Below are positions 1-9,618 of a stretch of DNA of 41,202 nucleotides, piece after piece; within the stretch, counting starts at the first letter, position 1, and each line of letters opens with the position of its first letter. The position numbers were made by a program, and so were the translations under genes. The notes below the pieces were generated by a model, which saw only the letters and a list, made by a program, of their open reading frames with translations, was not told the origin of the DNA and searched no databases. Location: positions 73,297 through 114,498 of the forward strand of contig MWEF01000002.1 of assembly GCA_002070905.1 (NCBI GenBank), given 5' to 3'. The stretch is from Tenericutes bacterium ADurb.Bin087. Lineage in GTDB: Bacteria > Bacillota_I > Bacilli_A > RFN20 > CAG-826.

Positions 1-542
1 CCTTTGTTGCGCGAAATATTAATAATATGGCCATCACTGTTTAAATCATAAATCGTGCGACCAATAAATTCATTGCGGGCATTTTTCACTCGTTGATATA
101 CCGCCGTGACTTTTGACTTTTTAGCAATATGTTGCTTTATAATCGGTCTAAAATCAAGTGGTAGTACAAAGTAACTTGGCGCCACAACAATATAATTAGG
201 ATCTGCTTGTTCTAAAATCCAGTCGTTAAATTTAATATTAGCGACATCGGTATTATAGCGCGGTCCAGCTTTCGATCCACCTTCATTATAGGCAATAATT
301 TCTAAGCCAAGCTTAGTGTTAATATTAAACGTATTACGACTGCCAAAATGTTTTAATACTGAATGCGGATGCGTGTCAACTAAAGTCGCAATTCGGTCAA
401 ACCCAGAGTTACTAAAGTTACTTAACATAAAGTCCATAATGGCATAACGGCCAAGGAAACTAACAACAGCGGTGGAACGATTTGTGGTAAGCGCTCCAAG
501 TCGTGGGGCATTGTGTAAATTAAGATATGCTAAAACTTTCAT
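1..542 (-). CDS. glgD: Glucose-1-phosphate adenylyltransferase regulatory subunit GlgD, partial (C-terminus outside window)
   Basis: About 180 residues can be read before the left edge. The N-terminus MKVLAYLNLHNAPRLGALT is followed by RYAIMDFMLSNFSNSG, the GlgD version of the nucleotidyltransferase fold. GlgC has the glycine-rich AGGKGTRL loop where this protein has LHNAPRLGALT, which is how the GlgD subunit normally differs from GlgC. In Firmicutes GlgD pairs with GlgC to make ADP-glucose for glycogen and modulates the catalytic subunit. The ATG overlaps the glgC stop by four bases (ATGA), so the two are translationally coupled. The assignment is firm. What lies downstream, such as glgA or glgB, is not visible. 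Confidence 0.93.
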   Translation of the reverse strand, partial: MKVLAYLNLHNAPRLGALTTNRSTAVVSFLGRYAIMDFMLSNFSNSGFDRIATLVDTHPHSVLKHFGSRNTFNINTKLGLEIIAYNEGGSKAGPRYNTDVANIKFNDWILEQADPNYIVVAPSYFVLPLDFRPIIKQHIAKKSKVTAVYQRVKNARNEFIGRTIYDLNSDGHIINISRNK

Positions 543-1669
543 TGCACTACTCCTTCATGGATGAGTAATACTTTCTCACCCTCTTCGTTATATCGTGAAT
601 CATTAGGTAACGCTAAATCGTTAGCGACAATTGCTTTATTCACATACGCATTACGGCCAACAGTAACACCAGGCATGATGACACTATCTTTAACAACAGC
701 GCCAACTTCGATAAACACTTCGTTACTAATAATTGAGCCGTCAACCTGCCCTAAAATAATTGCCCCTTGGTTGACGATGCTATTAGTAACTTTTGCTTTT
801 TTACCGATATATTGGGGGACACTATTTGTGTCTTCACTAAATAAGCGGAAATAATTTTTATCGGAGGCATAAAAGTCTTCATCCATCATGTTTATGAGAT
901 CCATATTGGCTTCCCATAATGAATCAATCGTGCCAACGTCCTTCCAATAACCTTCAAAGCGATGGACAAATAAGCGATTATTATTTGCTAACAGTGTTGG
1001 AATAATATTTTTGCCGAAGTCATGGTCACTATTTTCATCAGCGGCATCGTTCACAAGCGCTTCACGAAGTACTTTATAGTTAAAAATATAAATACCCATG
1101 CTTGCTAAGGTTGATTTAGGTTCAGCTGGTTTTTCCACGAATGCCGTAATCCGACCATCTTCATCAGCGCTTAAAATACCAAAGCGTTTTGCTTCTTCAA
1201 GCGTTACTTCAATAACGGAAATTGTTAAGTCAGCGTTATTCTCTAAATGTGTTTCAAGCATTTGCGCATAATCCATTCGGTAAATATGATCGCCACTTAA
1301 AATAAGGACATTTTCTGGATTATATGAATCAATAAATTCAAGGTTTTGATATATCGCGTCCGCTGTTCCAATAAACCAATTGCTTCCGCTATCGGTTTGG
1401 CGTGGTGCGATGGTAACGGTACTACTTCTAATCCCGTTTAACCCCCATTTCTCGCCGTTACCAATATAACGACTTAGACTAATTGACTCATATTGCGCTA
1501 AGACACCAACCGTATCAATCCCACTATGGGCGCAGTTACTTAAGGCATAGTCAATAATGCGGTACTTGCCACCAAAGTGGACTGCGGGCTTGGCGTCTTT
1601 GCGTGTCAACTCGTAGAGACGCGTACCTTTACCTCCCGCTAAAATCATTGCGATTAGCTCCTTTGCCAT
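539..1669 (-). CDS. glgC: Glucose-1-phosphate adenylyltransferase (ADP-glucose pyrophosphorylase) GlgC
   Basis: Makes ADP-glucose from ATP and glucose-1-phosphate, the committed step of bacterial glycogen synthesis. At 376 residues it is close to the usual ~380. Near the N-terminus lie the nucleotide loop ILAGGKGTRL and the motif KPAVHFGGKYRIIDY. The central motifs ILSGDHIYRMDY and the sugar-phosphate region FVEKPAEPK follow, then a C-terminal left-handed beta-helix (GAIILGQVDGS and similar repeats). I chose ATG 1669 because a strong AAAGGGGG lies 9-16 bases before it, inside the end of the upstream gene. An in-frame TTG at 1687 would place that ribosome site inside the coding region. It is the fifth gene of the jet operon and is coupled to glgD. 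Confidence 0.95.
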   Translation of the reverse strand: MAKELIAMILAGGKGTRLYELTRKDAKPAVHFGGKYRIIDYALSNCAHSGIDTVGVLAQYESISLSRYIGNGEKWGLNGIRSSTVTIAPRQTDSGSNWFIGTADAIYQNLEFIDSYNPENVLILSGDHIYRMDYAQMLETHLENNADLTISVIEVTLEEAKRFGILSADEDGRITAFVEKPAEPKSTLASMGIYIFNYKVLREALVNDAADENSDHDFGKNIIPTLLANNNRLFVHRFEGYWKDVGTIDSLWEANMDLINMMDEDFYASDKNYFRLFSEDTNSVPQYIGKKAKVTNSIVNQGAIILGQVDGSIISNEVFIEVGAVVKDSVIMPGVTVGRNAYVNKAIVANDLALPNDSRYNEEGEKVLLIHEGVVQ

Positions 1670-1670
1670 C

Positions 1671-2528
1671 TTACTTCCCCCTTTCAAGCATCGCTAACAT
1701 CAAGGCTTGTAGCAATTGCAAACTTGTCAAAAGCCGCTTATAATGTTCATTATCATATTTTTCACCTAGACGTAAGCGCCCTGGTGAAGCTAGGCCCTCC
1801 ACTTTCAGAAATTCATCAGTGTAGGTGGTGACATATTGATACGTCGCAACGTGTATTTTTAAAAATTTCACAAAGCGCGTTTCATTTTCTTTTCGTAAAT
1901 ATATTTTAGCATTTGTGGCACTGCTTGAGGCATAGTATTGCAACTTATATGGCGAAACATACGCAATTTTTACAATTGATGTATCTTCATATGTTTCTGG
2001 TGGCGCAAAATTACCATTATTAATTTGAATATAGTAGGGACATTCAATTGCCGGCAAATGAATAATCGCACTTTCTTTTTCGCCGTCATGCATATAAATA
2101 ACATTAAAGAGACGCTTGTTAAATTCATAAAGGGCGACACCCTTGATGCTCCCTGTTTTAACATTTAAGCCCGCATTATTTAAAAGCGGATAATAATCAA
2201 ACTTAGTACCACCTAACGGATTAGGAATTAGCATCAGTTTAACAACACGTGCGTCACTAAAAAATTGTAAATTAAGTGCTTTTTGCAGCCTTTTAAAACG
2301 CAACGGGAAATAAATGATAATAAATAAAAGAAACACTAATAAAAGTGCACCAAACATAATGGGCACATAGAAGGGTTCACGTAAGTTTACATCTGTTAAT
2401 AAATCAACAACGATAAGGGTGAGTATTACGGCAAGCAAAACGCTAATGGTCACGAAAAGTTCCACTAAATAATGGCGGCGTAAGCGCATATGATAGGCTC
2501 TTATTCCGTCAATAAATTTTGCTTCCAT
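1671..2528 (-). CDS. Two-helix membrane protein of unknown function between jetC and glgC
   Basis: 285 residues that I do not recognise. Residues ~22-45 and ~55-77 are two hydrophobic helices separated by a short loop (DVNLREPFY), flanked by basic segments (RLRRHY before, RFKRLQK after). The remaining ~200 residues are soluble and probably cytoplasmic, beta-rich in character, with a helical end. The general plan (two N-terminal helices, then a mixed domain) resembles DUF3137-type proteins such as the larger one at 38299, but I cannot claim homology. The ATG has a good site (GAAAGGAAG). The gene starts 21 bases after the jetC stop and ends one base before glgC, so it is co-transcribed with both. 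It occupies a place where a jetD nuclease could be expected, but it has no Toprim or nuclease motif that I can see. Confidence 0.8.
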   Translation of the reverse strand: MEAKFIDGIRAYHMRLRRHYLVELFVTISVLLAVILTLIVVDLLTDVNLREPFYVPIMFGALLLVFLLFIIIYFPLRFKRLQKALNLQFFSDARVVKLMLIPNPLGGTKFDYYPLLNNAGLNVKTGSIKGVALYEFNKRLFNVIYMHDGEKESAIIHLPAIECPYYIQINNGNFAPPETYEDTSIVKIAYVSPYKLQYYASSSATNAKIYLRKENETRFVKFLKIHVATYQYVTTYTDEFLKVEGLASPGRLRLGEKYDNEHYKRLLTSLQLLQALMLAMLERGK

Positions 2529-2549
2529 ACTACTTCCTTTCGTTAAATT

Positions 2550-5500
2550 TTATGTTAAATCCTCTTCACGCGCAAATAACTGCACAGTGCTATGATTTTT
2601 ACCACGTAACACAACTAACGTCTCATCCACTAGCGGACTAATATCGGCGACTTTATCACTTGGCGCACTAATGATTGCTTGTAAGCCAAAGCGCCGCAAT
2701 AAGCGAATCGACTCTTTAATCCGGCCACTATCCATTTTACTGAAGGCTTCGTCAAAGATAATAAGGCGGGCACTATTGCTTAATTCACCTGGTTCATTAA
2801 CACGATAGAGATAGGCAAAACTAGCAAGGACACTAATGTAGAATGGCGTTTGTGTTTCACCACCCGACTTCTTCATTAATACGCGTGAGAGTCGTTGTTC
2901 TTGTCCATCTTTATTACGGACGATTAAGTCAAAGTCTAAATAGTTGCGGTAGTCGGTAAATTTCTCGACGTTTGCTAAGACTGCCGCATTTTTATCACCA
3001 TCACCCGCTAATACGATTTGGGCAAATAAATCTTTCATCACATCGTCATATTTGTGGAAGAATTCACTATCATCATCCGTCACCTTTAGTAATAAATCAT
3101 CTTTAATCATGTCATAATATTGGCGATAAACCGTGCTTGGTTTAACGGTAAATTGATAAGAGTCTTCACCAAATGTTGACATGCTAAGTGCTTCATTAAG
3201 CTCAGCGATTTGATCTTCAACAGTTTCAATCGCATTGCGTAACTTCGAAATGAAGTCATCTTTAAATTGTTTAACCGCTTTGCGATAAGCATCGTTAATT
3301 TTTTCTTCATATTCAGGAAGTTTGACATCTAAGAGATCATTTAATTCCATTTGGAAGTCATCGTTATGGAGCGATTCAACGTCATAAGTTAAACGATAAT
3401 CAACAACATACTCTTTCCGTAACTTCTTCACTTGATTAAAGACACTATTTGATAAGTATAAAGCGTTACTAAATGCTTGGCGGTATTCCGCATTAATATC
3501 TAACGGATTTTTTCCTTCCGCAATTAAGTTTTGGAAGAAAGGCTCAGCGACATCATTAATGAAGAAAGCATCATAATTTTCATCAAGTTTACTTTGTCTT
3601 TCTTTAATAATCGCTTTTGTTTCAGGCATCCGTTCATTCTTTAAGATTTGCATGTTCGTCGAAATCTTACCGCGCTCTTCAACGAGGCTTGATTTTTGAT
3701 CCTCAATGCCTTTAATATCACTTTCCACTAACCCAATGCGGCGATGAATGCCTTCAATTAGTGTCAAATCATGACGCCCGAGTTCTTCATCGTAGAACGC
3801 AATACTTTCTTCCAGACTTGGTAATTCTTGAATGCGTTTGACTTGGCTCCCAAGCGCAGCGATTTCGTTCGTGTTTACAATTTCAACATCATTGCCGGGT
3901 AAGAGTACTTGTAAGAGTTCTTGATAAGTACGTAATGTTTCCGCGTGCGCGGCAAGTTCAGCTTTTTTAGCATTAACATCAGCTTCTTCAACACGGCGCC
4001 CAATATATTTTTGTTGATATAACCGCGGATTAATCCGGCCAAAAGTAAAGTTCCGATATAAATCGGTATCAGGCGTAATCCCGTTACCACTATTGCGCGC
4101 TTCTTGAATCGTTTGACACTTTTGTAAGCGTCCAAGTAAGAAATCAGCGTAGGCCCGCGCGCCAACGTGATCAGTCAATATTTCTTCGGCAACTGAATTT
4201 GGCATCGCACTAAAGCGCCGTTCAATAATGGCATCAACGTCAACTAAATTAGTGCCATAAAAATTATATTGTTGTAAAAGGCCCTTTAAGAGTTCATAAG
4301 CATCAAGGAAATATTGACCTTCGACAAAAAGATGGAAGCGTTGGCCACCTAAATAGCCTTCAATCGCATTTGTCCATTTCGCATCGCGAATATCAATTAA
4401 GTCACTAAAGATACTAACTTCCACTTTATGACCATATTTCGCGGATAATTTATTTTGTAATTCGTTTCGTATTTGCACGAGACTATATTCATATGGTTTA
4501 CCACCACCCCGCAAATCAAGTTCTTGTTGTTTAAGGATCGCTTCATTTACTTGATAATCATTAATTAAGCGCCCTAAACTTAAGGTAAAAGCCCCTAAAT
4601 GTTGTTTAAATTTAGCCTGCGCATTGCGCCAATCACTAAGCATTGTCTCACTAAGATCATTAATATCTTTATTTAAAACAGCGGTAATTTTGTGGTTTTC
4701 TTTAATGATGGCACTTGCACTTTCTAAAAGTTCTTCGCGGGCATATAATCCGTCTTTTTTAAGCCGCTTTTCATCCATTTCACTAACTTTTTCGAGAACC
4801 TCATTTGCGAGTTTATCAAACGTTAAGACATAATTTTCCAAGTCATTCCGCACTTGCATATTAAGGAATTTAAGACTCTTAATTTTTTCTTCGGCAACTT
4901 TTTTATGTTCATTAATTTCGTCAGTGATGCGATAAGTATCATTACTTGAACTATCTTGAATGAGTTTGACGCGGCGCTTATTGAGCTCGGCAAGATCAAC
5001 ATCTAAGTCCGCTAATTCACTTTCAATATCCGTTAACCGTTTTTGGTAACCAAGGTATTGATTATCATATGTCGCTAACCGATTTAAGTCATTTTGGAGC
5101 GTGGCCTTTTCAAGCACATATTCAAAAAGCGTTAATTGATCCTTATGACCTTTATAAACTTCATAGTTTTTCGCGATTTCATTTAAACGTTCAACTTTAA
5201 ACCGCATTAATGCCGCTTCATCTTCTAACTTCTTATATTGCAAAATATTTTCTTGCATCGGGGCAATATCGATATTACCTTGGGCTTCGGTGACATATTC
5301 AGTAATAAAAGTCGTAATGTCGGTAATAGGTGAAAAGCTCACGGCTTTTTTTAAGAGACTGAAGTATTTATCCTTTAAGTTCCCAAGTTTACGTTTTAAT
5401 GCATCTTGATATTGCCGATTTGTGTCAAAAAATTTAAATTTATTTGGATAATGTTCTTGGAAAAATAAATTCAAATCTTTATATTCAAGCGGTACACTAT

Positions 5501-5924
5501 CAACGATAAATTCATTTTCCGGCATTTTAGCGTCTAACAGGAAAAATCGATGATCAATTCCGCCATCATCAAAGACATCAAACACAATTCCTAAATTAAA
5601 GTGATCATCATTAACATCGTCATAAAACTCTAACACAATGTAAGATGTAAAGCGGCCGTTCCGTAAATAATGGAATCCACCTTCAAGCGAATCACCAAGT
5701 TCGCCACGTAAATACCCGCGTAATGTCCGGTTTGATTTCTCCGCTGCTGCTTTATTAAAGTGCCGCCCCGAAGTATCACCAAGAAGGACAACTTGCATCG
5801 CGTCAATCAGTGTCGACTTCCCACTGGCGTTGACCCCAGTTAAGAACACAATTTGTTCAATATTTAACGTTTGATTCCAAAAATAGTGCCAGTTAATAAT
5901 TTTGACCGTTTTTAAAAGTTTCAT
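2550..5924 (-). CDS. jetC: SMC-like ATPase JetC/MksB (Wadjet-type condensin)
   Basis: 1124 residues with the full SMC-type ATPase layout. The Walker A is GVNASGKST at residues 30-38. Long coiled coils flank a central globular hinge-like region (around VSIFSDLIDIRDAKW and EGYLGGQRFHLF). The ABC signature KSGGE is at ~1019-1023 and the Walker B LIIFDEA has its D/E at ~1058-1059. All ATP-hydrolysis elements look intact. In Wadjet and MksBEF systems this subunit forms a ring with the JetA kleisin and JetB KITE proteins that extrudes DNA loops. With the JetD nuclease such rings cleave small circular plasmids. The start overlaps the jetB stop by four bases (ATGA). It could equally be a chromosome-maintenance MksB, since no jetD is next to it. 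Confidence 0.88.
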   Translation of the reverse strand: MKLLKTVKIINWHYFWNQTLNIEQIVFLTGVNASGKSTLIDAMQVVLLGDTSGRHFNKAAAEKSNRTLRGYLRGELGDSLEGGFHYLRNGRFTSYIVLEFYDDVNDDHFNLGIVFDVFDDGGIDHRFFLLDAKMPENEFIVDSVPLEYKDLNLFFQEHYPNKFKFFDTNRQYQDALKRKLGNLKDKYFSLLKKAVSFSPITDITTFITEYVTEAQGNIDIAPMQENILQYKKLEDEAALMRFKVERLNEIAKNYEVYKGHKDQLTLFEYVLEKATLQNDLNRLATYDNQYLGYQKRLTDIESELADLDVDLAELNKRRVKLIQDSSSNDTYRITDEINEHKKVAEEKIKSLKFLNMQVRNDLENYVLTFDKLANEVLEKVSEMDEKRLKKDGLYAREELLESASAIIKENHKITAVLNKDINDLSETMLSDWRNAQAKFKQHLGAFTLSLGRLINDYQVNEAILKQQELDLRGGGKPYEYSLVQIRNELQNKLSAKYGHKVEVSIFSDLIDIRDAKWTNAIEGYLGGQRFHLFVEGQYFLDAYELLKGLLQQYNFYGTNLVDVDAIIERRFSAMPNSVAEEILTDHVGARAYADFLLGRLQKCQTIQEARNSGNGITPDTDLYRNFTFGRINPRLYQQKYIGRRVEEADVNAKKAELAAHAETLRTYQELLQVLLPGNDVEIVNTNEIAALGSQVKRIQELPSLEESIAFYDEELGRHDLTLIEGIHRRIGLVESDIKGIEDQKSSLVEERGKISTNMQILKNERMPETKAIIKERQSKLDENYDAFFINDVAEPFFQNLIAEGKNPLDINAEYRQAFSNALYLSNSVFNQVKKLRKEYVVDYRLTYDVESLHNDDFQMELNDLLDVKLPEYEEKINDAYRKAVKQFKDDFISKLRNAIETVEDQIAELNEALSMSTFGEDSYQFTVKPSTVYRQYYDMIKDDLLLKVTDDDSEFFHKYDDVMKDLFAQIVLAGDGDKNAAVLANVEKFTDYRNYLDFDLIVRNKDGQEQRLSRVLMKKSGGETQTPFYISVLASFAYLYRVNEPGELSNSARLIIFDEAFSKMDSGRIKESIRLLRRFGLQAIISAPSDKVADISPLVDETLVVLRGKNHSTVQLFAREEDLT

Positions 5925-6559
5925 AAGTCACCTCCCTCGCTCCCTACGTCGCGTAAGGCAAGTTTTTCGAGCGCTTCGCTAATTGCGACAATTTTTTCAT
6001 TATCGACCGCAAAAGTAATTGATGGTAATAAGTAGAAAGTAACATTCCCTTCATCATAACTGCCTGAAACGCGGGCAATAATATTATGCGCCGCTATTTC
6101 TTTTAAACAGCGACCAATTAAGCGTCCACTTAGGCGCTTATTTGGAAATCCAATTCCGCGGTCATGCATAATTTTCATTACCAATGGTGTTGTTAAATAA
6201 ACTGAATCACCAACGTGGCCGCCTTCTTTACGTTCTTCTTCATAAATTAAACGAAGGACAAATAATACTAAACTTACTTCGCGGTCGAACCGTAAGCGAT
6301 TATGACTATATTCATTGACGAGACTAAAGACCCCAAGAATTAAATCTTTATCCACTCTCCAGCCCGCAAAACTTAAATAATCGTTAATTAAGTCAAAATG
6401 ACGTTCAATGAAACGATAAGTCGGATTAATTTTAATTGTTTTTTCGCGGCGGTCGAATTCATCACGCACAATAAAACTATTGAGTAATAATTCGTTAATC
6501 GCTTTGGCGAATGCATCTTGATCGGCTCTTGTTAATTGTAAAAAGGCTTCTTCAAACAT
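5921..6559 (-). CDS. jetB: JetB/MksE-like KITE subunit of the condensin complex
   Basis: 212 residues lying between jetA and jetC. The sequence looks like tandem winged-helix segments (for example YLTTPLVMKIMHDRGIGFPNKRLSGRLIGRCLKEIAA split by short strands), as expected of a KITE subunit such as JetB/MksE, DUF4194- or DUF6063-type. KITE dimers bind the kleisin and DNA and help close the ring. The call rests as much on gene order as on sequence. A site AAAGGAG lies about 13 bases before the ATG. The ATG follows the jetA TAA after a single base and the stop overlaps the jetC ATG, so stoichiometric coupled expression is likely. No residues look missing, but I have no per-residue reference for this fast-evolving family. 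Confidence 0.78.
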   Translation of the reverse strand: MFEEAFLQLTRADQDAFAKAINELLLNSFIVRDEFDRREKTIKINPTYRFIERHFDLINDYLSFAGWRVDKDLILGVFSLVNEYSHNRLRFDREVSLVLFVLRLIYEEERKEGGHVGDSVYLTTPLVMKIMHDRGIGFPNKRLSGRLIGRCLKEIAAHNIIARVSGSYDEGNVTFYLLPSITFAVDNEKIVAISEALEKLALRDVGSEGGDL

Positions 6560-6560
6560 G

Positions 6561-7976
6561 TTATAAGGTAATCTCCTTTCGTACGAATGTTAAATTTGGT
6601 AAGCGATATCCATAACTACTCACACTACCTGGATCAGTTTGGATTAAATAAAAACATTGTTCATCATTTGTTTTAATCGTCGCTAAAATTAAAAGTAAGA
6701 AAGCATCAAAAGATGGGAGTGCGATGTCACTGATGTGCACTTCACTTTCATCATCAAACGCAATATCCATAAATTCAAAGATCGCGTCATTAGAAAATTG
6801 GCTACTTGTTTCATCAAGGAACCCTTGCATTAACATATCGCGCACATCATCAAAGTCTGTTAGTGACATTGGAATACTTTCAGCGCGTAATTGACGCACA
6901 ATCGGTAATGTTAATGAATCTGGGGTAATATAACCGTGTTGTTGGAAGGTAATTGATTGATTGATACCATTAAGAATCGGGGTCACACTTTCACCTTTAC
7001 TTAAAGTTTCAGCGTATGTTTTAAAGATATAGTCTAAGTGACCTTTAATCGATTTATCCGCGGCATTAAGATAAAGAATCTTTGAAGCACTAGCTTTTGT
7101 ATATTCATAGTGCTTATTATCAATTTCACCAATTGTGTCACTAACACGTTCGTACATATCGGCAATGTAATTAATTTTATTAATAATATCGGCTTCAGCG
7201 GCTTTAGCGTCTTTATTGCGACTCCACATTAATGATTGTGCCACTAATTGTTGGCGAATATCATCATCATAGAGCCACTTTTGTAAAATTTGTAAAATCG
7301 GGCGCTTAAATTTAGCGACACTATCAAACGTTTTCAGCGGGTGATAATAACGATCACTCACGCGCGTTTTATATAGGTCGAAATAATCGCTTAATATATT
7401 ATTAGTGCTAAATACTTTGCCTAAGCGATTTTGGAAAATACGAATACTATGCGCTAGTGTAATTAATTCAACATTAAGGCGCTTTGTATTTTCAAAAGCG
7501 CGCACAAGAGTCGCATACATAAATTCGTCCCGCATGTCGTCTTCTAGTTTTAATTCGCTATATGTCGCATGCACGAGCGACACGTATTCAGCGGTACTCT
7601 CTTTTACTAATTCATGAAGCAATGAAATAACATTAATGCTATAACTTGGTAAAGCGATGTATTCTTCAAAGTTATCAGGATTAACTTCAACATCAATCCA
7701 GCCACACTCTTCTAAACGCCGCACAATAAAAGCGGCCTTATCGCTATGATTAACGATCTCATCTTCATCGCCTTCTTCCTCATCATCAAAATCAACGTTA
7801 AGCGCAAGCTCAGTTAAACGATCACGAAGATTTCGGGTAAAGTCACGTTTCTTAATCAGCAATTCATTATCTTCAATTGAAGAGTGCAACAAAAGAAGCG
7901 CTTCGGCATATATCTCTTTATTCTTACTCGCGAGAATGGAGAAGAAATTACTAGGAATGATTGCAAATAAACTCAA
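6561..7976 (-). CDS. jetA: JetA/MksF-like kleisin subunit (Wadjet JetA, DUF5716-type)
   Basis: 471 residues. The N-terminus (PSNFFSILASKNKEIYAEA) and the following LEECGWIDVEVNPDNFEEYI match what I recall of the Wadjet JetA/DUF5716 family: an N-terminal winged-helix region, an acidic linker (FDDEEEGDEDE, ~64-74), a long helical middle and a C-terminal domain. As the kleisin it would bridge the two heads of the JetC dimer and carry JetB. The start is TTG 7976, supported by AAAGGAG ten bases upstream. No ATG lies at that end. It is the first gene of the operon and diverges from the DUF5677-like gene at 8102. The type II label comes from the family resemblance and has not been checked by a profile search. 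Confidence 0.82.
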   Translation of the reverse strand: MSLFAIIPSNFFSILASKNKEIYAEALLLLHSSIEDNELLIKKRDFTRNLRDRLTELALNVDFDDEEEGDEDEIVNHSDKAAFIVRRLEECGWIDVEVNPDNFEEYIALPSYSINVISLLHELVKESTAEYVSLVHATYSELKLEDDMRDEFMYATLVRAFENTKRLNVELITLAHSIRIFQNRLGKVFSTNNILSDYFDLYKTRVSDRYYHPLKTFDSVAKFKRPILQILQKWLYDDDIRQQLVAQSLMWSRNKDAKAAEADIINKINYIADMYERVSDTIGEIDNKHYEYTKASASKILYLNAADKSIKGHLDYIFKTYAETLSKGESVTPILNGINQSITFQQHGYITPDSLTLPIVRQLRAESIPMSLTDFDDVRDMLMQGFLDETSSQFSNDAIFEFMDIAFDDESEVHISDIALPSFDAFLLLILATIKTNDEQCFYLIQTDPGSVSSYGYRLPNLTFVRKEITL

Positions 7977-8101: not shown

Positions 8102-9172
8102 ATGGCAAATAACTTCCCCCTTAGTCGTGAAAAAGTGCGAAGCATCCTAAGTGATGATGTCCACATTTCGCCGATTACTAATGAAAAGCTTGACTACTTT
8201 CGTAATGCGATAAGAAATGCCTATCCTGATTATCGCCGTAAATTTGGTGAACGGGCACTCAACCCACAAATATTTGCCGAAAATATTATTAAACGCCATA
8301 ATCACACAATCAAATTGTACAGCATTAGTTACCAACAAAATTACTATAAAAATGACCAACACATTAAGCAAATAATTGACGATTTTATTAATGCCGAAAA
8401 TGCTAAACAAGACCCTGAACATACCTTTACACGCGATGCTTATATTGATCCGCTGATCTTAAAATTTGAAAACTTAATTGATAGTCGCTACCAAAAATTA
8501 AAGGCATTTGATATCGCCAAAATAAAAGATCCACAGTTAACGTTATATAACTTGACAGTGCGCTACTTCCAAGAACTAGTTTCTGGAATAATGCTTTTAG
8601 AACGCGAGTTTTATAATGATGCTTTCATCGTGTGGCGCAGTTTATTAGAAACAACAGTTACCTTATTAATTCTTTATAATAACGCAAATTTAGTGGGCAA
8701 ATTTAATGAACGGCGTAATATTGCTTTAATGCGTGTCAAGGTTTTAGGTACTAGTCGCCAAGCACAAAAAGATAAAGCGAAGGAAACAAAACAACAACTT
8801 GGTTTTAAGGGTGTTCCTGATTATATCGCTGAGCGTTATGGCTGGGCGGGTGAATTAATTAAATCACGTGAATATTCGCTGCGAACACTACTTGAAATAA
8901 TTAATATGGTTGACCTCTATCCCCATTATGCTTTTGCCTCATTATTTGTTCACGAATATTTAATTAGTCCCGAAGATTTACGATTAGAGATTGATTTTGA
9001 AAAATATTTATTAACGTTATACTTTAAATTATATGAGGCTGTTCGCGTTAACATCAATGACTTCACAAATGATCTTGATGCCGTTAAAAAATTAGAACAA
9101 GGAGTGCGCAAAGAAGTAAACAATTTTAAAGCACAATTTAATGACTTTAGTGCGCGAATTCAAACAACATGA
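8102..9172 (+). CDS. DUF5677-like helical protein, paralogue 1 (next to the jet operon)
   Basis: 356 residues, mostly helical, with no signal peptide or clear membrane helix. The core AFIVWRSLLETTVTLLIL (W178, R179, E183) and a later conserved-looking histidine (SLFVHEYL) fit the DUF5677 pattern, in which an R-x3-E helix and a histidine are characteristic. The gene at 24393-25481 shares WRSL, the E and the TLxLL segment at nearly the same residue numbers and is almost the same length (362), so the two are paralogues. The biochemical role is unknown. A HEPN-like helical bundle is a possibility I cannot confirm. It diverges from jetA and overlaps the next gene by four bases (ATGA). It has no Shine-Dalgarno. 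Confidence 0.7.
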   Translation: MANNFPLSREKVRSILSDDVHISPITNEKLDYFRNAIRNAYPDYRRKFGERALNPQIFAENIIKRHNHTIKLYSISYQQNYYKNDQHIKQIIDDFINAENAKQDPEHTFTRDAYIDPLILKFENLIDSRYQKLKAFDIAKIKDPQLTLYNLTVRYFQELVSGIMLLEREFYNDAFIVWRSLLETTVTLLILYNNANLVGKFNERRNIALMRVKVLGTSRQAQKDKAKETKQQLGFKGVPDYIAERYGWAGELIKSREYSLRTLLEIINMVDLYPHYAFASLFVHEYLISPEDLRLEIDFEKYLLTLYFKLYEAVRVNINDFTNDLDAVKKLEQGVRKEVNNFKAQFNDFSARIQTT

Positions 9173-9618
9173 CGGAGAAAAGAATTTATACAAGTTTTAA
9201 AGGCTTACTCTTAATTTACCTCCCGATTTATTTATTGATGACGATCGTCTTCTATTTAATTGTAGGTATTAAATTTCCGCCTACTTTAAACCATTATCTT
9301 GCCGTAGGCGGGTGGACTATTATTACGATAATTTATTTAATTTTTGGGTATCGCAATAGTTATTATGAAATTAAAAAGCATGAAATAATTCACCACAAAG
9401 GGAGTAATGTTCTTTATTACAAATTCGATGACATTATTTATATTGATCAAGTTTATTCCGCTAAAAAATTAAGTATTCGCTTCTTCACCCGTGTCGGTGA
9501 TGAACGCTATTTAGCGCATGACCCACACAAAAAAGTCTATAACGCCATGCTTGAACGCTGCCAAAATTTAGTGGATAAAGATGAATTATTACGGCGTTTT
9601 CCTAAAATTAACTTCTAA
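9169..9618 (+). CDS. Small membrane protein with two helices and a PH-like domain
   Basis: 149 residues. Helices at ~12-32 (LLLIYLPIYLLMTIVFYLIV) and ~43-60 are followed by YYEIKKHEIIHHKGSN, then a run of short alternating strands and a closing helix (HKKVYNAMLERCQNLV). This is the layout of bacterial PH-like (bPH, YdbS/YdbT-type) domains: a membrane hairpin, a beta-barrel half and a C-terminal helix. Function is unknown. It is translationally coupled to the upstream DUF5677-like gene, so the two probably work together, perhaps with the latter held at the membrane. That last point is inference. Confidence 0.62.
   Translation: MTEKRIYTSFKGLLLIYLPIYLLMTIVFYLIVGIKFPPTLNHYLAVGGWTIITIIYLIFGYRNSYYEIKKHEIIHHKGSNVLYYKFDDIIYIDQVYSAKKLSIRFFTRVGDERYLAHDPHKKVYNAMLERCQNLVDKDELLRRFPKINF

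Follow-up and report, generated by a model that had tools for sequence, protein, structure and literature searches.

A jetABC operon without jetD in a lineage of Bacilli that appears to lack SMC-ScpAB: most likely a condensin of Wadjet ancestry

Pseudomonas aeruginosa carries SMC in addition to MksBEF (PMC7485682), and in the enterobacteria Smc-ScpAB has been replaced by MukBEF (PMC10586767). In the Wadjet systems, an IFDR motif at the N terminus of JetB has been tied to the binding of JetD (PMC10586767), which is a nuclease of the Toprim/DUF2220 type and was sought here using the profile PF09983 (JetD_C). A survey of the reduced orders of Bacilli is silent on SMC and condensin (PMC10868615). 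We found no paper in the open-access literature that describes a replacement of SMC-ScpAB by JetABC in Bacilli, though others could exist.

The window, by which we mean the whole stretch of 41,202 nucleotides analyzed here, contains adjacent jetA, jetB and jetC genes, whose family matches lie far beyond chance (Table 1). The operon spans positions 7976 to 2550 of the minus strand. The start codon of jetA is a TTG, located behind AAAGGAGAA; jetA and jetB are separated by 1 nt, jetB and jetC overlap by 4 nt, and the gene for a membrane protein of 285 residues follows 21 nt after jetC. The ATPase motifs of JetC are intact (Walker A GVNASGKST, signature KSGGE, Walker B LIIFDEA), and a Pfam scan of JetC gave a match to SbcC_Walker_B (PF13558) with an E-value of 5.7e-26. 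Coordinates, Pfam and PADLOC hence agree with the original prediction that the kleisin, KITE and SMC subunits are adjacent and coupled and have intact motifs. It was also correct that jetD lies neither before jetA nor after jetC, as the region contains no jetD, and that the slot after jetC is occupied by the 285-residue membrane protein and then by glgC, for which an internal ATG (MAKELIAM) is a possible start that would remove the overlap with the membrane gene. Of the features by which Wadjet type I is recognized, the adjacency of jetABC and an intact ATPase are therefore present; an encoded JetD is not.

Table 1. Features of the window in and around the jetABC operon, with the matches on which their assignment is based.
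Feature	Position	Strand	Matches
149-aa membrane protein, divergent from jetA	9169..9618	+	family matches: none of weight
DUF5677 protein, between jetA and the 149-aa gene	8102..9172	+	PF18928 E 4.1e-11
jetA / mksF, kleisin subunit, 471 aa	6561..7976	-	PF18982 E 1.5e-89; PADLOC JetA1 425 bits
jetB / mksE, KITE subunit, 212 aa	5921..6559	-	DUF4194/JetB PF13835 E 3e-16; PADLOC JetB1 213 bits
jetC / mksB, SMC-like ATPase, 1124 aa	2550..5924	-	PADLOC JetC1 1095 bits; PF13558, PF13555, MukB PF04310
Membrane protein of 285 aa with two TM helices, putatively a divergent relative of DUF3137/TtfA	1671..2528	-	AlphaFold2 model; TtfA 6t84 Z 11.5; PF11335 in relatives; leave-one-out profiles
glgC, first of the downstream glgC-glgD-glgA (context, outside the complex)	539..1687	-	

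The search of the whole genome for JetD that had been proposed with the original prediction was run with PF09983. It gave no match in the genome of the window (1.09 Mb in 50 contigs, 88% complete), and none in three other sampled genomes of its genus or in the neighborhoods of window-type operons; a JetD in these genomes could be too diverged for this profile. Among the 196 genomes of the family (f1), profile searches found JetA in 60 and JetD_C above the cut-off in 17. Every one of these 17 JetD lies on the contig of, and adjoins, a second and different JetA/JetC that scores below the window type, and eleven of these operons were examined directly (L067, L075–L082, L084, L085). The suggestion that JetD is encoded elsewhere therefore finds no support. 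Both kinds of operon occur in 11 genomes (G005, G026, G036, G105, G148, G154, G160, G176, G181, G185, G189). Genus g27, to which ‘Candidatus Onthovivens’ (L011) belongs, has 22 genomes with a window-type jetC, and only nine of these also carry a JetD-bearing Wadjet. The JetD-bearing Wadjets of the family are thus separate, patchy operons. The IFDR motif is absent from orphan JetB and equally absent from the JetD-bearing JetB of the class, and is therefore uninformative on JetD binding in this class. We note that some other jetABC operons of the family (L081, L084, L087, L088, L089) have an open reading frame of roughly 1365–1947 aa directly upstream of jetA, and that two of them (L087 and L089) also have no recognized jetD.

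Window-type jetC was found in 40 of the 196 family genomes, and its occurrence is all-or-none by genus: among the 96 genomes tallied, 11 genera have it in all of their genomes and 24 others in none. The gene order rsgA-rpe-...-(149-aa gene)-jetABC-(membrane gene)-glgC-glgD-glgA is shared, entirely or partially, by the related loci and the family neighborhoods compared, down to a JetC identity of about 45%; we therefore conclude that the window-type jetABC sits at a fixed chromosomal address and not in a defense island. In family f2 and in 24 of 36 window-type loci, a homologue of the 149-aa protein is encoded upstream of jetA in divergent orientation; this gene is linked to jetABC at least as much as the 285-aa gene is. 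A DUF5677 gene at jetA was seen only in the genus of the window among the loci compared. In a JetC tree made by a quick method (SH-aLRT support only, with long branches flagged), all 37 window-type sequences fall into a single clade (99) that follows taxonomy and is sister to four orphan, that is JetD-less, sequences from the neighboring family f2 (100). The JetD-less sequences of families f2, f4, f10, f20, f21 and f22 form one clade per family, which points to vertical inheritance of the JetD-less jetABC, and the JetD-bearing sequences are scattered. Comparison with a congener gave dN/dS values of about 0.04 for jetA, jetB and jetC, similar to rsgA (0.036); jetABC is under strong purifying selection. 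Two features of an MksBEF-type complex are thus found together: a chromosomal core inheritance rather than a mobile distribution, as seen in the synteny, the clade that follows taxonomy and the all-or-none occurrence by genus, and an SMC/kleisin/KITE trio with no nuclease.

The profile of the SMC hinge (PF06470) matched in only two of the 196 family genomes, in both at about 28 bits and within JetC, so that neither is a true hinge, and ScpB (PF04079) was above its cut-off in none of the 196. The same profiles were positive in 10–11 of 14 control genomes (10 of 14 for the SMC hinge). Candidate ScpB matches in G056 and G190 were rejected, being of 18–20 bits and in frames of about 430 aa. Judged from the SMC hinge and ScpB profiles, the whole of family f1 appears to be without SMC-ScpAB. 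Across the class, the SMC hinge was found in 90 of 179 genomes, and JetA and SMC are anticorrelated: SMC occurs in 9 of 48 genomes with JetA versus 79 of 131 without it (Fisher 6e-7, uncorrected for relatedness). The SMC-negative families f2, f4, f10, f20, f21 and f22 carry JetD-less jetABC; of all their genomes, only one, a member of f21, yielded a JetD, which belongs to a second, JetD-bearing operon. Family f8 has SMC alongside both JetD-less and JetD-bearing jetABC operons, and in its combination of SMC with JetD-less jetABC resembles P. aeruginosa, with SMC and MksBEF (PMC7485682). The f8 loci with JetD-less jetABC and SMC are L095–L098 and L100; in G235 and G244 the operon and the match to the smc hinge are some 15–17 kb apart.

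ParB is present in the genome of the window (G000:C7:34426-34929) and in 60 other genomes. It occurs in 21 of 22 genomes with jetABC versus 36 of 74 others (p 4e-5 by genome and 0.02 by genus, uncorrected for relatedness), which suggests a link between ParB and jetABC. About 135 of the 196 family genomes, including 65 of the 116 of high quality, gave no match to SMC-ScpB, JetA or a full JetC with the profiles used. JetABC is therefore not irreplaceable, and a condensin seems to be dispensable in family f1; it follows that the absence of SMC is no proof that JetABC does the job of SMC.

We propose, with a probability of roughly three in four, that this JetD-less, Wadjet type-I-like JetABC is an MksBEF-type condensin that acts on the chromosome. 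Packing of the chromosome is the most likely role because jetABC is a stable, JetD-less core gene set in bacteria without SMC-ScpAB. The original prediction had included a chromosome-organizing MksBEF among its possibilities, and this one gains support from the all-or-none occurrence by genus, the fixed position, vertical inheritance, purifying selection and the family-wide loss of SMC-ScpAB. The complex most likely descends from a Wadjet, in bacteria from which SMC-ScpAB has gone. Dimers of JetC, with JetA as the kleisin that bridges them and with JetB KITE dimers attached, would extrude DNA loops using ATP; with no JetD to cut when extrusion ends, the loops would compact the chromosome and aid its segregation, so that JetABC would take the job done in other Bacilli by SMC-ScpAB. 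We infer loop extrusion on the chromosome and the replacement of SMC-ScpAB; ParB may also load the complex, and the downstream protein may tether it to the membrane. The wider scenario, that in several lineages of Bacilli JetABC lost JetD, became the sole condensin and works with ParB-parS, and in some genera with a TtfA-like anchor, is tentative, with the odds somewhat against it as a whole.

The structure of the 285-aa protein was predicted alone using AlphaFold2, as had been proposed (pLDDT 83.9, pTM 0.80). The model has a helical hairpin (residues 2–44 and 54–96), in accordance with the earlier description of a two-helix membrane protein, followed by an alpha/beta domain. This C-terminal domain aligns with mycobacterial TtfA (6t84) in VIA-align with a Z score of 11.5 over 152 residues (3.3 Å, 9% identity; not significant in Foldseek), and the model also matches one chain of the multipass translocon, which we take to be CCDC47, with a Z score of 8.6. 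A Foldseek search of the model against the PDB gave no significant match. DUF3137 (PF11335) is matched by 4 of 13 homologues, with a best E-value of 2.2e-8; the protein of the window itself gave no match. Pooled leave-one-out profiles join the very divergent membrane proteins encoded after jetC into one family; pairwise profile comparison did not link the group of the window to the other groups. Weak matches of these proteins to ABC2_membrane_5, ArtM and MARVEL were judged to be due to chance. The protein may resemble the membrane adaptor domains of DUF3137, TtfA and CCDC47 in having a membrane anchor and a similar alpha/beta domain, and differs from them in its identity of only about 9%, in falling below the PF11335 cut-off and in its linkage to jetC.

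The membrane protein had been suggested to be a new effector. How often its gene follows jetC decides one part of this suggestion: the gene is missing from 24 of 37 window-type operons, either because glgC comes directly after jetC or for other reasons, and in g27 from every operon with a readable slot. The protein is therefore no required effector. That it replaces JetD in a Wadjet-like anti-plasmid system, for instance by attaching the ring to the membrane or by permeabilizing the latter, is also hard to reconcile with a fold that resembles adaptor-type domains such as those of TtfA and CCDC47 and has neither a nuclease nor a pore signature, with a gene whose rate of evolution is five times that of jetABC (dN/dS 0.21 versus 0.04), and with the retention of jetABC as a core gene when defense systems are patchy; we consider this reading very unlikely. 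The other part of the suggestion stands, in that clades with the gene show a genuine link to jetC. Apart from the short spacing, strong matches to the pooled profile are confined to 13 family genomes that carry window-type jetABC, and each lies just downstream of jetC (one displaced by two genes); the gene stays at jetC where glgC is not adjacent (L030, L036); and four loci of family f2 have homologues in the same slot. The common ancestor of f1 and f2 probably had the gene, with several losses since. We conclude that the 285-aa protein is an optional partner of jetABC and no substitute for JetD, and that it may have a part in tethering the complex or in its regulation. A condensin that is anchored or regulated at the membrane by a DUF3137/TtfA-like partner in some genera would be compatible with a chromosomal condensin, and is consistent with the two-TM hairpin, the possibly TtfA-like domain of the model and a co-localization that is solely with jetC in the 13 genomes and the f2 loci. 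We regard it as possible but doubtful, since g27 and several other genera have lost the gene and kept jetABC, and the slot could reflect synteny alone.

That the family also has JetD-bearing Wadjets, which share a genome with a window-type operon in 11 cases, might indicate a defense system that uses JetD in trans, or a Wadjet without JetD that is decaying and on its way out. However, the JetD of the family have their own JetA/JetC and most genomes with a window-type operon have no JetD, and a decaying jetABC would hardly be intact, conserved at a dN/dS of 0.04 and all-or-none by genus; either version is improbable. Somewhat less so, though still unlikely, is that JetABC serves some other process on DNA, for example repair or the management of replication forks, and not the global organization of the chromosome. 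Most of the family has no condensin recognized by profiles, so global condensation need not be required of JetABC, but the precedents of MksBEF and MukBEF, the class-wide anticorrelation with SMC and the association with ParB argue for the chromosomal condensin.

If a chromosomal condensin is indeed what jetABC encodes, nature would here have disarmed a defense machine and turned it to housekeeping as a condensin, in the class that includes Bacillus subtilis and in parallel with enterobacterial MukBEF. The proposed route from Wadjet to condensin is testable because JetD-bearing and JetD-less JetABC share genomes. Matches to jetABC in such genomes are a warning against calling them plasmid-defense systems, and the neighboring genera with no recognizable condensin raise the question of how their chromosomes stay ordered.

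The locus resembles Wadjet type I (JetABCD, MksBEFG or EptABCD) in its subunit families, the order jetA-jetB-jetC and the ATPase motifs, but its operon has no JetD and is a vertically inherited core locus, whereas Wadjet is a patchy defense operon. Enterobacterial MukBEF is a related complex and has replaced Smc-ScpAB (PMC10586767), as we propose for JetABC; the two belong to different phyla and subfamilies, and ParB is kept in the lineage of the window. As in the MksBEF of P. aeruginosa, which organizes the chromosome without MksG, a kleisin/KITE/SMC trio of the JetABC kind is found with no nuclease; unlike P. aeruginosa, SMC-ScpAB appears to be gone, and the trio is of the PADLOC JetA1/B1/C1 type and is found in Bacilli.
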